Virus record (IMG/VR): IMGVR_UViG_3300034104_003795
Coordinates: 90,370 to 154,369 of that record
Strand: one strand, 5' to 3'
Source: a virus
DNA: 64,000 nucleotides
Every line of letters starts with the position of its first letter. Position 1 is the first letter of the stretch. This document shows positions 177-48,101 of the stretch, piece by piece. The position numbers and the translations under genes are program-made. The notes beneath the pieces were generated by a model that was given only the letters and a program-made list of their open reading frames with translations, had not been told where the DNA came from and made no database searches.

Positions 177-211
177 TTTTCAAGTTGTAATAAAAATTAA
201 GATATGAAACG

Positions 212-229
212 AACAACTTTTCAGTTGTT
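212..229 (-). terminator. GAAA-capped hairpin at the 3' end of the large RNA
   Basis: The minus strand reads AACAACT-GAAA-AGTTGTT, a perfect 7-bp stem with a GNRA loop, then T-rich sequence (TTAATTTTTATT, about 190-200). Position and T-richness suggest a 3' boundary or weak terminator for the structured RNA. The U-run is not immediate, so the terminator call is tentative. Confidence 0.4.
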
Positions 230-234
230 AGTAG

Positions 235-322
235 CTCTCTCTATTGGAATCGAACCAATATGCAACCATTGAGAAAGTAAAAACGCTGAGAATATACGTT
301 GGGATAACTAGCTTTAGAAAGA
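235..322 (-). other. tRNA-like element: acceptor stem and T-arm without a clear anticodon arm
   Basis: TCTTTCT (322-316) pairs with AGAGAGA (242-236), 7 bp with one G-U. Immediately inside the 3' strand is a canonical T-arm: ATTGG, loop TTCGATT, CCAAT (259-243). Some 54 nt lie between position 9 and the T-stem, too long for a class I tRNA and close to a class II tRNA. I could not find a standard D-arm or a 7-nt anticodon loop. G235 would be the discriminator. It may be a degenerate tRNA-Ser-like gene, or a tRNA-like 3' end of the large RNA (tmRNA-style mimicry). CCA is not encoded. Confidence 0.45.
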
Positions 323-1195
323 TTATTTTGTTTCCTTTCGTTTCCACATCCTTTTGAGATGTACCAGTCAATGCAGGTTATTATAGATTAACCACTCTTA
401 AAGTTGTAACTTACTCACCTATTACTCCCCTTATTCAATCCTGCCGAACTGATTAAACCTTGCGGGTCTATAAGCTTTTCGTAGATATCACATTCGCCTT
501 GCGGGCGTTTGTGGCTGGGAACAACTCCCAACTATGTATGCACCTTTCGGTCACAACTGATGAACACTTTTGCTTTTATTTATAATTGAATAATCAAATC
601 CGCATTTGATAAAAGTTTTGGTTCGTAGATGGATTCAGGTAGCGGTTCACCACTAGCTCTGTCCCCTTTTGAAGAACAGAATACTATACTACCCGATGCG
701 TTATCTCAACGCCATACTTCAAGTCATCTTCATTAATAGGGATTGGTGTCCCATATTAAAGGATAGTAACGGCACCACCCGTACACAGTCTTATCTTACG
801 TCCTTTCGGATAGCTTGATTGTCAAGACCACTTTGGTATTGAATCACGCAATAATAAAAAGGGATTAGCTTTCTATTTCTTACAATAATCCTATGAGTTA
901 TTCTTATCGTTCTTCCGAACTCAACTGAACAATCTACAATTGCTCAGTCACCCAAACTCTTCTGCTACAGTGTTACCCTCACATACAAAGCCCAAATGAT
1001 ATCTCACTTGCCTACTCAAGCTCATAACCTTACAGGGATATGAACCGCAAAATGCTTAACCAAACATTTCACTTTATCCTACTTTCGTAGTTTATTTAAT
1101 GACCATAGGCGGCCATTTTGTACACTATATAACACGAAGTTATTATGTGTAAATTATTTCAATAATGTAAAGAACTTTGTTATTTGATAACTTTA

Positions 1196-1227: not shown

Positions 1228-1237
1228 TTTATTTTTA

Positions 1238-1294
1238 AAGATTCTCAATTTTGTTTTCTGGTCAAACCAATCAACTACTTTATTTTTGAATCTT
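1238..1294 (-). ncRNA. Candidate small RNA closed by a 7-bp helix
   Basis: AAGATTC at the 5' end (1294-1288) pairs perfectly with GAATCTT (1244-1238). Inside is a TGGT-TTG-ACCA hairpin. The 5' arm begins at the start site predicted from the promoter at 1297-1328. There is no ORF. It is one of three consecutive promoter-plus-closed-helix units; the function is unknown. Confidence 0.4.
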
Positions 1295-1296
1295 CA

Positions 1297-1328
1297 TAAA
1301 GATACGATAATTTTTTCAAACTACCAAA
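1297..1328 (-). promoter_or_regulatory. Bacteroidota-type promoter
   Basis: TTTG (1328-1325), exactly 20-nt spacer, TATCTTTA (1304-1297), within the shared context ATTTGGTAG...CGTATCTTTA. It reads into the small RNA at 1238-1294. Confidence 0.65.
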
Positions 1329-1345
1329 TCTTTTTTTAAAAGTTA

Positions 1346-1419
1346 TTAAGGTATCCGGCTTTATTAGGAGCTTGCGCCCCTCACACAATCGGTTTTATTA
1401 TTGTTGGCTTCAACCTTAA
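1346..1419 (-). ncRNA. Candidate small RNA with GCAA-capped hairpin
   Basis: TTAAGGT (1419-1413) pairs with ACCTTAA (1352-1346). Internal hairpins are GGGGC-GCAA-GCTCC (1380-1367, GNRA loop), GTTG-AAGC-CAAC, and ACAAT/ATTGT. The outer helix begins at the start site predicted for the promoter at 1426-1457. There is no ORF. The compact nested structure suggests a stable RNA of about 75 nt, and I recognise no family. Confidence 0.45.
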
Positions 1420-1425
1420 CTTTGT

Positions 1426-1457
1426 TAAAGATACGAAAGTTTTTTCAAACTACCAAA
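1426..1457 (-). promoter_or_regulatory. Bacteroidota-type promoter
   Basis: TTTG (1457-1454), 20-nt spacer, TATCTTTA (1433-1426), reading into the small RNA at 1346-1419. Confidence 0.65.
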
Positions 1458-1467
1458 TCTTTTTTTA

Positions 1468-1565
1468 AATCTATTATAATGGGGTTGGGTTGTACCCTTT
1501 TCAATCTGCTTTCACACCCATCACTCCCAAAGAGCTGTCAGTATCAGATACCACTATTATAGATT
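1468..1565 (-). ncRNA. Candidate small RNA closed by a long helix, 3' of the tRNA
   Basis: The ends (1565-1551 and 1482-1468) form a 15-position helix with one A-A mismatch and one G-U pair. Inside are a GGGT-ACA-ACCC hairpin and a CTC/GAG hairpin. It starts 3 nt after the tRNA 3' end, so it is probably a trailer excised from the same transcript. There is no ORF and no family is recognised. Confidence 0.45.
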
Positions 1566-19459: not shown

Positions 19460-19491
19460 TAAAGATACGAAATCTTTTTGAATCTACCAAA
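19460..19491 (-). promoter_or_regulatory. Bacteroidota-type promoter for the MoxR gene
   Basis: TTTG (19491-19488), 20-nt spacer ending TTTCG, TATCTTTA (19467-19460). Dyad repeats lie directly upstream. Confidence 0.75.
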
Positions 19492-44849: not shown

Positions 44850-47800
44850 TTAATGCAATTGTACCCAAGCCCCATTCGCGTATCCCATAAATTTATGAGT
44901 AGTTGAATTGTATATCATATCTCCATTCGCAGGAGTTAAACTTCCAGTTTGTACATCAGTAAATGTTGCCATTCTCATTGGTGATTGCGTTACAATTACC
45001 GCAGTACCAGCTGTTAAGTTTAAGTTAGTTGCCGATGTTATTTCAGGTGTACCGGTTGCATATATGTTAAATCCAGATGCACTTATCGCACCACTAACAA
45101 ACATAGAACCTGTTAGTTTCATTTCTGCTCCATCGAATGTGAGAGTATTACTTACAAATAATCTTTCAGGTGAATTTTCGTATCTAACTAACCCATTATT
45201 TACACTTCCAGTTACAGCTAATAGGGATGCAACTCCAGAAGTTCCAGATGTACCATTCGTACCAGATGTGCCATCAACACCACTTGTACCAGTCACACCA
45301 GATGTACCAGATGAACCAAATGCAGTACCGTCTAAACCATTTTTACCAGATGAACCAGACGTACCATCAGAACCATTTGCTCCAGGTGCACCATTTGTTC
45401 CAGATGTACCACCACTACCAGCAGTTGCTCCTGCTGCGGTTAAACCACTTGTACCAGAAGTTCCAGAGCTACCACTAGTACCCATAGTACCGTTTTCTCC
45501 ATTTAATCCCGATGAACCAGATGAACCAATAAATGTTCCATCTTTACCAGATGTACCAGATGACCCAAAAAATCCAGATATACCAGATGTACCGGAAGTA
45601 CCATCTGAACCATTTACACCAGATGTTCCATCTTTACCAAATCCAGATGAACCAGATGTACCAGATGAACCAACAAATGTTCCATCTTTACCGGAAGTAC
45701 CGGATGTACCATCTTTACCAGATGAACCTGCACTACCCGCACCACCACCGGTTCCTGCGGTGATTGTTATATGTCCACTACCAGGTGTATTAGTTACAAC
45801 CGCCCCACCGGTAAATGTTATTTGATTTACACCACTAATAGATGTAGGTCCAACATCATCATTTATTGTTAATGCAATAGATGTACCAGAACTACCACTT
45901 GAACCGGATGTACCGGCTGTTCCACCTATACCAGTTATTCCAGATGAGCCAGATGTACCATCGGTACCAGGTGCCCCAATACCATTAAGTCCAGATGTTC
46001 CAGATGAGCCATCTTTACCAGATGTACCAGATGTACCGCCACTTCCACTTACTCCTGCGGTTCCAGATGAACCAGAAGTTCCACCACCACCATCTTTACC
46101 AGATGTACCAGAAGTACCATTTGAACCCCCACCGCCTACACCACCGGCTACAGTAAGTGCAACGGTACCGCCACCACTATTCGTAGCACGAATTGTATTA
46201 TCCAATGTTAATGTGGTTGTTGCAGCTGCGGAGAATGAACCACTATTAATTGTAAGTCCACCACCACCACCACCGGTTGTTATAGTTACTTGTCCGCCAC
46301 CATCATCTGCAACAACGGCTCCATTGAATCGTATTGTACGAACTGAACCAAAAGAACTACCACCTTGTTGAGATACTGTTATCGCTCCAAATGAAGATGT
46401 AGCTATTATTCTAGATATATCATTAACTCCACCAACCCAAGCATATCCTTGTGGAAGTGAAGCAGATAAAGGTCCACTTACTTGTAGAGAACCTGTAATT
46501 TGTATATTATTTGTTGTTGCGAATACCGAACCGGTTGCCGCAAATATTCCAGTACCACTACCAGCACTACCAAATGAAGATGTTGCTACTAAAATTGTTC
46601 TATTATTAGGACCACCTACCCAAGCATATCCTTCTCTTAAAGATGAAGTAATTGAACCACTAATATTCAAATTTTTACCAAATGTAACATCAGCATCGTC
46701 AAATGCAACTGCTTCAAAGGTTCTAAAATGTAGTTCATGATAGAGATTACCAGCTTTTGTATAAAGTTCTCCTTTGGCATTAGTACTTTTATCAGTCCAC
46801 AATATTGAAGAATTTTCTTCCTGTGCTCCTCTAGAATCAGAACCTAAATCTAAAATTTGAACGGTAGGACCATACAACATACCACCATATTGTGTTTTAC
46901 CAATTCGTATAGAACCGGTAATATGCAGAGAACCACTAATATGTGCAGAACCAGTATAAGGGAATACAGTTGTTGTTAAACCAGATGTTCCCGCAGTTCC
47001 ACTTATTCCAGATGAACCAGATGAGCCAGAAGTTCCAGATGAACCAGAGCTTCCAGAAGTTCCTGATGAACCACTTGTACCATCTAAACCGGTTGTACCA
47101 TCTTTACCGGATGTACCAGAAGACCCACTTGAACCAGATGTTCCAGAACTACCACTACTTCCAGATGTACCAGATGAACCAGAAGTTCCAGATGAACCAG
47201 AGCTTCCAGAAGTTCCAGATGAACCACTTTGACCAGGTGCACCTGCCGTATTTATATACCATGAAGTTATACCAGTACCACTACCTGATGTAGTTGTTAT
47301 ATTAACCACTAAATCACCTGTACCGCTGTTATAAGATGTTACAGTTCCTTCTAATACATTTGATGCATTTTCAGAAATAATAATAGCCTGTCCAGGAGTC
47401 CATTGTAATCCAGTTCCTATTGTGAAATTTTTAGAACCAGTGCTTATATTGTTTGAAGTACTCGATGTTGATGAGAATCTATCACCATTTTGTCCAGAAG
47501 TTCCAGATGAACCCGATGAACCAGATGTACCATCTTTACCAGATGTACCAGATGAACCGCTACTACCAGATGTTCCAGATGAACCGGAAGTACCACTCTC
47601 TCCAGAAGTTCCAGATGAACCTGAACTTCCAGAAGTTCCAGAACTACCACTACTTCCTGATGTGCCATCTTTACCAGATGTACCAGAAGAACCGGATGTA
47701 CCTGAACTTCCTGATGTGCCATCTTTACCGGAAGTACCAGAAGAACCACCACTACCAGCAGTACCAGCAGGTCCACTAGCTATTGAAGTTGTTTTTCCTA

Positions 47801-48101
47801 TTGTTTTTGTAGAACTATTGTAAACTAATACTTCACTTGCAACAGCATCGGTTGAAATATTATCAAATCTTAAACTACCAGAAATTAAAACACTACCAGT
47901 AAATTGTCCGCTTAATTGTCCACTTAAAGTTGATAGATTCGATACGGATGAAGATACTGATGTTAATGTTGAATTTAAATTATCAGTTGTTGTATATAAT
48001 GTATTTACGGAACTTGATACGTTTTCTAAAATCGTCAAGTTGGCATCCATTTCTGCCGCCGTTAAGGGACTACCCTTTGGTATTCTTTTTATTATTGCCA
48101 T
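44850..48101 (-). CDS. Collagen-like tail-fibre protein
   Basis: 1083 aa. The N-terminal ~70 residues (AIIKRIPKGSPLTAAEMDANL, then Ser/Leu heptads) are typical of phage fibre attachment regions. Several blocks of Gly-X-Y triplets, chiefly GTS, GSS and GKD, form collagen-like triple-helix rods (~110-215, 300-390, 690-770, 830-1000). Between them are beta-rich domains, including two copies of a GYAWVGG...ATSSFG unit (~495 and ~565). The C-terminus is a short adhesin-like domain (TGSLTPANGDMIYNSTTHKF). It likely forms a trimeric receptor-binding fibre. Confidence 0.9.
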   Translation of the reverse strand: MAIIKRIPKGSPLTAAEMDANLTILENVSSSVNTLYTTTDNLNSTLTSVSSSVSNLSTLSGQLSGQFTGSVLISGSLRFDNISTDAVASEVLVYNSSTKTIGKTTSIASGPAGTAGSGGSSGTSGKDGTSGSSGTSGSSGTSGKDGTSGSSGSSGTSGSSGSSGTSGESGTSGSSGTSGSSGSSGTSGKDGTSGSSGSSGTSGQNGDRFSSTSSTSNNISTGSKNFTIGTGLQWTPGQAIIISENASNVLEGTVTSYNSGTGDLVVNITTTSGSGTGITSWYINTAGAPGQSGSSGTSGSSGSSGTSGSSGTSGSSGSSGTSGSSGSSGTSGKDGTTGLDGTSGSSGTSGSSGSSGTSGSSGSSGISGTAGTSGLTTTVFPYTGSAHISGSLHITGSIRIGKTQYGGMLYGPTVQILDLGSDSRGAQEENSSILWTDKSTNAKGELYTKAGNLYHELHFRTFEAVAFDDADVTFGKNLNISGSITSSLREGYAWVGGPNNRTILVATSSFGSAGSGTGIFAATGSVFATTNNIQITGSLQVSGPLSASLPQGYAWVGGVNDISRIIATSSFGAITVSQQGGSSFGSVRTIRFNGAVVADDGGGQVTITTGGGGGGLTINSGSFSAAATTTLTLDNTIRATNSGGGTVALTVAGGVGGGGSNGTSGTSGKDGGGGTSGSSGTAGVSGSGGTSGTSGKDGSSGTSGLNGIGAPGTDGTSGSSGITGIGGTAGTSGSSGSSGTSIALTINDDVGPTSISGVNQITFTGGAVVTNTPGSGHITITAGTGGGAGSAGSSGKDGTSGTSGKDGTFVGSSGTSGSSGFGKDGTSGVNGSDGTSGTSGISGFFGSSGTSGKDGTFIGSSGSSGLNGENGTMGTSGSSGTSGTSGLTAAGATAGSGGTSGTNGAPGANGSDGTSGSSGKNGLDGTAFGSSGTSGVTGTSGVDGTSGTNGTSGTSGVASLLAVTGSVNNGLVRYENSPERLFVSNTLTFDGAEMKLTGSMFVSGAISASGFNIYATGTPEITSATNLNLTAGTAVIVTQSPMRMATFTDVQTGSLTPANGDMIYNSTTHKFMGYANGAWVQLH
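45200..47780. repeat. Tandem-like nucleotide repeats encoding Gly-X-Y triplets
   Basis: On the plus strand, blocks of 9- and 18-base units such as CCAGATGTA / CCAGAAGTT recur at about 45230-45720, 45890-46120, 46980-47230 and 47500-47760. They encode the GTS/GSS/GKD triplets of the fibre. Such repeats invite recombination and length change. They also create long antisense ORFs that I do not accept as genes. Confidence 0.8.

Follow-up and report, generated by a model that had tools for sequence, protein, structure and literature searches.

The window analyzed here, a stretch of 64,000 nucleotides (nt) from a 274-kb virus record (IMG/VR IMGVR_UViG_3300034104_003795, positions 90,370 to 154,369), carries on its minus strand, at 1190-283, a complete two-domain GOLLD RNA that stands at the head of the tRNA array of this phage and is a new member of that known family. 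Immediately behind its 3' end lies a short element, here called a mini-tRNA, which has the acceptor-like stem, D-loop-like linker, and T-arm of a tRNA. Its relatives (>100 in phage contigs) make up an RNA family that is widespread in phages and apparently undescribed. Taking the findings below together, we propose, as the probable and best explanation of the whole, that the mini-tRNA is a predicted RNase P signal, which ends the GOLLD transcript here and splits operons in other phages.

A complete GOLLD RNA in a phage tRNA locus

The earlier note on this DNA had singled out 205-1191 as a stretch without a gene and with structure on the minus strand only. It is indeed spanned by no long open reading frame (ORF), the ORFs lying wholly inside it reach no more than 49 aa, and its minus strand folds at -265.8 kcal/mol, versus -232.0 kcal/mol for dinucleotide shuffles (z -5.0), with 0 of 20 shuffles folding as well; the plus strand (z -1.2) is not better than shuffles. 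The features of the locus, given from the 5' side of the minus strand, are as follows.

1568-1640, minus: tRNA-Met(CAT), preceding the GOLLD promoter (ARAGORN; Rfam tRNA, 64.7 bits)
1196-1227, minus: putative GOLLD promoter, TTTG ... TATCTTTA (exact 32-mer repeat)
697-1190, minus: GOLLD 5' domain, by analogy the counterpart of the cap domain in the env-38 structure (nhmmer and alignment)
283-696, minus: GOLLD 3' domain, the ring domain by analogy (Rfam RF02032)
579-620, minus: unpaired A/U-rich linker in the 3' domain (unpaired stretch of the Rfam consensus)
233-278, minus: mini-tRNA with a 7-bp acceptor-like stem, CTTTCTC/GAGAGAG (covariance model R1)
212-229, minus: hairpin with a GAAA cap, AACAACT-GAAA-AGTTGTT, adjoining the mini-tRNA on its 3' side (sequence)

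The Rfam GOLLD model, which covers the 3' domain only, matches 696-283 on the minus strand at 306.8 bits (E 6.9e-87; gathering score 150) over its full length (positions 1-416 of 416). This identity bears out the proposal that the phage tRNA locus contains a giant, ornate RNA; the accompanying statement that the RNA has no specific match to GOLLD, and hence might be a divergent member or a new class, does not hold, and the match rules out a new RNA class. Besides GOLLD and tRNA, a cmscan of 1-2500 returned just one chance match, to sX4, with ROOL and the other Rfam giant RNAs absent; among the families that the earlier note had named for comparison, GOLLD is present, and ROOL, introns, and tmRNA give no match at the locus.

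The 5' domain was traced with nhmmer, which gave 157 matches in the fetched GOLLD-containing phage loci, the best one outside the window's own being in L143 (403 bits). Covariation of the helices had been set in advance as the check on the proposed structure, and it is found: an alignment of 16 sequences over about 500 nt has 131 consensus pairs, 78 of which show at least one double change that preserves pairing. For instance, the hairpin ACGG-GTGGTG-CCGT has the stems ACGC/GCGT and ACAG/CTGT in relatives. The homologous loci retain the RNA; neither of the two outcomes that the earlier note had named as refuting it was obtained. As is typical of GOLLD, the covarying 5' domain is less conserved than the 3' domain, and the RNA is located in a phage, near tRNAs, the setting (phage or prophage) of the family. 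The tRNA neighborhood described earlier is likewise real: the 274-kb record has one GOLLD and 26 tRNA matches, of which 25 lie downstream of GOLLD, nearly all close by, and the tRNA-Met lies upstream.

Two side observations may be added here. In ten relatives (L356, L359, L362, L365, L369, L371, L372, L380, L386, and L390), the GOLLD 3' domain is preceded, at a distance of roughly 0.8-1.4 kb, by a phage tmRNA (RF00023, 78-98 bits). Elsewhere in the window, a 1083-aa ORF (44850-48101, minus strand) with long GTSGSSGTSG-type repeats probably encodes a repetitive tail-fibre-like protein.

A repeated putative promoter

The promoter predicted for the RNA at 1196-1227 proves to be a repeated 32-mer with four copies in the window, the others being at 1297-1328, 1426-1457, and 19460-19491. 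Three of the four are placed in series within 1196-1457, between the tRNA-Met and GOLLD (shuffles, 0), and a similar sequence, TTTGG...TCGTATCTTT, occupies the same place directly upstream of the GOLLD 5' domain in several relatives. We take the putative promoter to resemble the -33/-7 type of Bacteroidota, which hints at a host from that phylum. The copies at 1297-1328 and 1426-1457 (within 1230-1560, minus strand) each stand ahead of a noncoding stretch of 60-100 nt, with AAGATTC/GAATCTT and AAGGT/ACCTT as possible closing stems; these stretches between the tRNA-Met and GOLLD are candidate small RNAs.

A mini-tRNA at the 3' end of GOLLD

A tRNA-like element had been noted at the 3' end of the RNA. 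Such an element does exist at 278-233, in the form of a minihelix of acceptor stem and T-arm; as a tRNA it fails, with both ARAGORN and the Rfam tRNA model silent at this position. It reads CTTTCTC-AATGGTTGCAT-ATTGG-TTCGATT-CCAAT-A-GAGAGAG, in which the linker AATGGTTGCAT resembles the D-loop of a tRNA (A A T G G T) with its G18G19-like pair of residues, and ATTGG-TTCGATT-CCAAT forms the T-arm. There is neither a D-stem nor an anticodon arm, the distance from acceptor to T-arm being about 10 nt versus about 40 in a tRNA, and the acceptor and T-stem make up a stack of about 12 bp. Both helices are contained in the minimum-energy fold. The covariance model R1, among whose 63 sequences this copy is itself included, scores it at 54.0 bits, with an E value of 7.7e-12 for the window, and it is the sole full strong R1 match in the 274-kb record. 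A tmRNA was likewise sought at 278-233, and the window has no match to one, neither an mRNA-like domain nor the full model being found.

The element ends in a CUA tail, and the GAAA-capped hairpin reported at the end of the RNA follows in the sequence at 212-229. This hairpin is not a clear terminator, since no U-run lies behind it. Among the candidates discarded were an intrinsic terminator as the GOLLD 3' end, the sole terminator-like match sitting inside GOLLD, and a mimic of tRNA-Ala aminoacylation (G3:U70), the acceptor stem having no conserved G-U pair.

A covarying family in phages

Viral contigs were scanned with the linker and T-loop fixed and with the acceptor stem and outer T-stem left free. 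A stricter pattern scan found 44 contigs, and the scan with a control heptamer found 81; therefore, match counts alone are no proof, and it is the acceptor-pairing test that separates real from control. At least six of the seven acceptor pairs are formed in 90 of the 142 unique AATGGTT matches among those listed (12.3 with 3' sides shuffled) and in 48 of the 108 unique AACGGTT matches among those listed (7.7 with 3' sides shuffled); resting as they do on the matches listed, both figures are lower bounds on the family. With the reversed heptamer as a control, the count is 3 of 41, versus 3.4 shuffled.

In an alignment of 63 mini-tRNAs, the covariation score is 0.763; shuffled sequences score 0.170, and slid partners do not exceed 0.284. 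Double-changed cells number 286, whereas shuffles have 102. The three T-stem pairs that the search pattern did not set are paired in 100% of these sequences. The 63 were chosen for diversity, mostly with visible pairing, and hence it is the acceptor-pairing test that supplies the unbiased figure. R1 gives >110 matches below an E value of 1e-3 in 98 loci, which had been preselected by pattern, and a single phage may hold up to ten copies. The register of the acceptor stem shifts by one base between mini-tRNAs, and single-sequence folding is weak for the A/U-rich ones.

The family is absent from Rfam 15, in that cmscan, run on the window and on ten further loci, gave only partial tmRNA matches of 17-20 bits (gathering score 47). 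Bacterial genomes (248 + 249) yielded one match under strict filters, with only 25 candidates scored per genome. No R1 matches were present in the annotated relatives of L446 or of the ArdC-like protein of L407, and DNA-similarity searches of the multicopy contigs L407, L461, and L589 against annotated phages returned nothing; for L544 and L548, DNA similarity pointed to mycobacteriophages and to phages of Streptococcus. The Microbacterium phage repeat motifs spelled out in the text of one report (PMC7302621) differ from the mini-tRNA, the 30-bp repeats of cluster EI being shown there in a figure only. We did not find a description of the mini-tRNA in the open-access literature, to which that search was largely confined.

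What fills the slot behind GOLLD

We surveyed the slot behind GOLLD in 89 loci that share the 3' landmark TCTCAG, two of the rows being the window's own record. An ARAGORN tRNA is found at most 160 nt past the landmark in 20 of the 89, and many of the tRNA-free loci have a hairpin and then a U-run behind GOLLD, neither of which the window has there. A mini-tRNA occupies the same slot in at least 16 other GOLLDs, namely, L143, L137, and L200, whose acceptor stems differ (CTTTCTC/GAGAGAG, TATCAT/ATGATA, and TTATCTA/TAGATAA), and 13 further loci, where the mini-tRNA begins about 3-9 nt past an Rfam GOLLD match of 261-288 bits. An alignment of the GOLLD-adjacent mini-tRNAs (17 rows, 16 distinct) has 99.5% of its cells paired and shows 24 double changes; L159, L384, and L428 are included in it on the basis of a flank resembling the GOLLD 3' end, L159 and L384 being too short for a GOLLD match. 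Since some GOLLDs end in an apparent plain terminator, the mini-tRNA is not required for GOLLD function.

Deviant tRNAs, too, are seen in this position. Six loci (L006, L010, L017, L020, L196, and L209) have a tRNA-Gly(TCC)-like sequence directly 3' of GOLLD with a T-arm that departs from the usual TTCRANT loop, making it a second kind of deviant tRNA behind GOLLD. In L002 (3837-3910) and L187, the ARAGORN tRNA directly after GOLLD has an unassignable (two-base) anticodon.

Mini-tRNAs between genes

Away from GOLLD, mini-tRNAs are predominantly intergenic: 99 of 114 avoid ORFs with a minimum length of 90 aa, whereas such ORFs contain 60% of random 45-nt windows. The flanking ORFs are mostly on the same strand as the mini-tRNA, both upstream (79:17) and downstream (76:20). 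In Mycobacterium phage Fowlmouth, six of the seven full mini-tRNAs begin 6-16 nt past an annotated stop codon and one overlaps the stop, and the three in Papyrus begin 6-11 nt past the stop; taken together, 9 of the 10 full matches begin 6-16 nt past a stop codon. Downstream, the next start codon follows at 33-50 nt; the exceptions are two Fowlmouth sites with an annotated ORF over the element. At Fowlmouth gp43 and gp47 (L633 5970-6107 and 6867-7142), the annotated genes overlap a mini-tRNA; it is possible that the annotated starts of these genes, or gp43 entirely, may be wrong.

Comparable arrangements recur in other phage contigs. L407 has a mini-tRNA behind each of five successive genes, followed in each case by a ribosome-binding site and start codon, and L409 (929-1779) has six mini-tRNAs about 150 bp apart in a stretch without long ORFs. 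The spacers between the latter are about 105 nt long, A/C-rich, and of the ACAAAACATAAC type.

A proposed role in processing, and its rivals

Bacterial RNase P cleaves hairpins consisting of the acceptor stem, T-stem, and T-loop alone, and it also processes the phage M3 and C4 RNAs (PMC11143913). The acceptor/T-stem stack and T-loop that characterize such substrates are found in the mini-tRNA, as judged from both covariation and fold. Another characteristic, the 3' RCCA, is mostly lacking: CCA is present in 6% of the strong mini-tRNAs, with C at the C74 position in 52% and at C75 in 7%. This motif aids bacterial RNase P and is not strictly required by it. Further, CCA is missing as well from 68% of the ordinary tRNAs found in these contigs; hence, its absence calls for caution and does not refute a role for RNase P.

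Accordingly qualified, we infer RNase P cleavage at mini-tRNAs and picture it as follows. A promoter of its own, at the head of the tRNA array, would drive GOLLD transcription; RNase P would then recognize the elbow and acceptor stack of the mini-tRNA and cut at its 5' side, setting the GOLLD 3' end and separating GOLLD from the remainder of a long transcript of the tRNA array. The 3' side of the mini-tRNA may be a target of RNase Z or of exonucleases. In the operons of other phages, the same cut would yield an mRNA 3' end just past the stop codon, and if the 3' side of the mini-tRNA were also cut or trimmed, the downstream message would be left with a short leader. The general form of this idea, that in phages of many hosts natural mini-tRNAs punctuate polycistronic mRNAs and end GOLLD-like giant RNAs through the tRNA-processing enzymes of the host while being unable to decode, is one we favor by a narrow measure.

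The presence of real tRNAs in the same slot of other GOLLD loci makes an origin from a tRNA by internal deletion easily imagined, and the locus might be a plain GOLLD, with the element behind it a decayed, functionless tRNA gene. Decay, however, would break stems, yet the GOLLD-adjacent elements have 99.5% of their cells paired and 24 double changes; moreover, the same architecture occurs in unrelated phages, and tRNAs are missing from most of the stretches fetched for these phages. We thus regard decay as quite improbable. Temperate phages often have tRNA 3' ends at attP, which recalls att sites, with host tRNA 3' ends copied into the phage; such fragments need neither a covarying 5' acceptor strand nor a D-loop-like linker, and several different mini-tRNA copies are present per genome, making this origin very improbable indeed. 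The covariation, including that of the 5' acceptor strand, was the ground on which both decayed tRNA and attP fragment were set aside.

It is also conceivable that mini-tRNAs work in trans, decoying or inhibiting either the tRNA enzymes of the host or a tRNA-targeting defence, their intergenic place being merely convenient for transcription. Many tRNA enzymes bind the elbow and acceptor stack, and an RNA with no anticodon arm would escape anticodon nucleases, but the fixed geometry relative to the stop codon, the co-orientation with genes, and a copy number that reaches about 10 per genome better suit a cis signal, and we consider a trans function unlikely. Short hairpins between genes and near stop codons could alternatively be transcription attenuators or roadblocks in translation coupling, working independently of tRNA enzymes. 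To us this seems rather unlikely: a plain hairpin has no need of a T-loop, G18G19-like linker, and acceptor/T-stem stack all together, a combination maintained in both A/U-rich and G/C-rich phages, and the mini-tRNA of the window has no U-run behind it. If cleavage by RNase P is the correct reading, knowledge of how the GOLLD 3' end forms would be a first step toward the function of this RNA and would help explain why GOLLD is found beside tRNAs, and the covarying, non-Rfam RNA family between the genes of mycobacteriophage isolates would point to an overlooked layer of phage mRNA processing.

Parallels with known systems

Several parallels are offered by known RNAs. The model RNase P substrates and external guide sequences (PMC11143913) have the same minimal domain, a coaxial stack of about 12 bp with a T-loop, and by this analogy the mini-tRNA, as a predicted substrate, would work like a natural version of them; those models are synthetic, whereas the phage mini-tRNAs are natural, keep a D-loop-like linker, and are mostly without CCA. 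The tRNA-like domain of tmRNA (RF00023) likewise combines an acceptor, T-arm, and D-loop with the absence of a D-stem and anticodon arm, and two L407 mini-tRNAs give weak RF00023 matches with the middle deleted (19-20 bits; gathering score 47). In contrast to tmRNA, the mini-tRNA has no mRNA-like domain or tag and is about 45 nt long versus about 370. The M3 RNA and the C4 antisense RNA, like the mini-tRNA as read here, are natural phage-encoded RNase P targets other than tRNAs (PMC11143913). They are single RNAs of particular phages, and the mini-tRNAs form a repeated intergenic family. The role proposed for mini-tRNAs also recalls mitochondrial tRNA punctuation, in which tRNA-shaped marks designate where a polycistronic transcript is cut; the mitochondrial marks are functional tRNAs, whereas mini-tRNAs cannot decode, and we claim no evolutionary link.

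As for GOLLD itself, the closest comparison is with env-38, which forms a 14-mer cage, has its linker at nt 497-538, and is found downstream of a tRNA-Met (PMC12286853). The window GOLLD shares with it the two-domain layout, the tRNA-Met directly upstream, the phage tRNA locus, and a similar size; the comparison with the solved structure covered part of its motifs. From its family membership, it should form an RNA-only cage like that of env-38, with 579-620, mapped by position, as the likely counterpart of the disordered linker. The GOLLD cage is a 14-mer joined by kissing loops and A-minor bridges. Unlike the GOLLDs with a tRNA or a terminator behind the 3' end, it has a mini-tRNA there.
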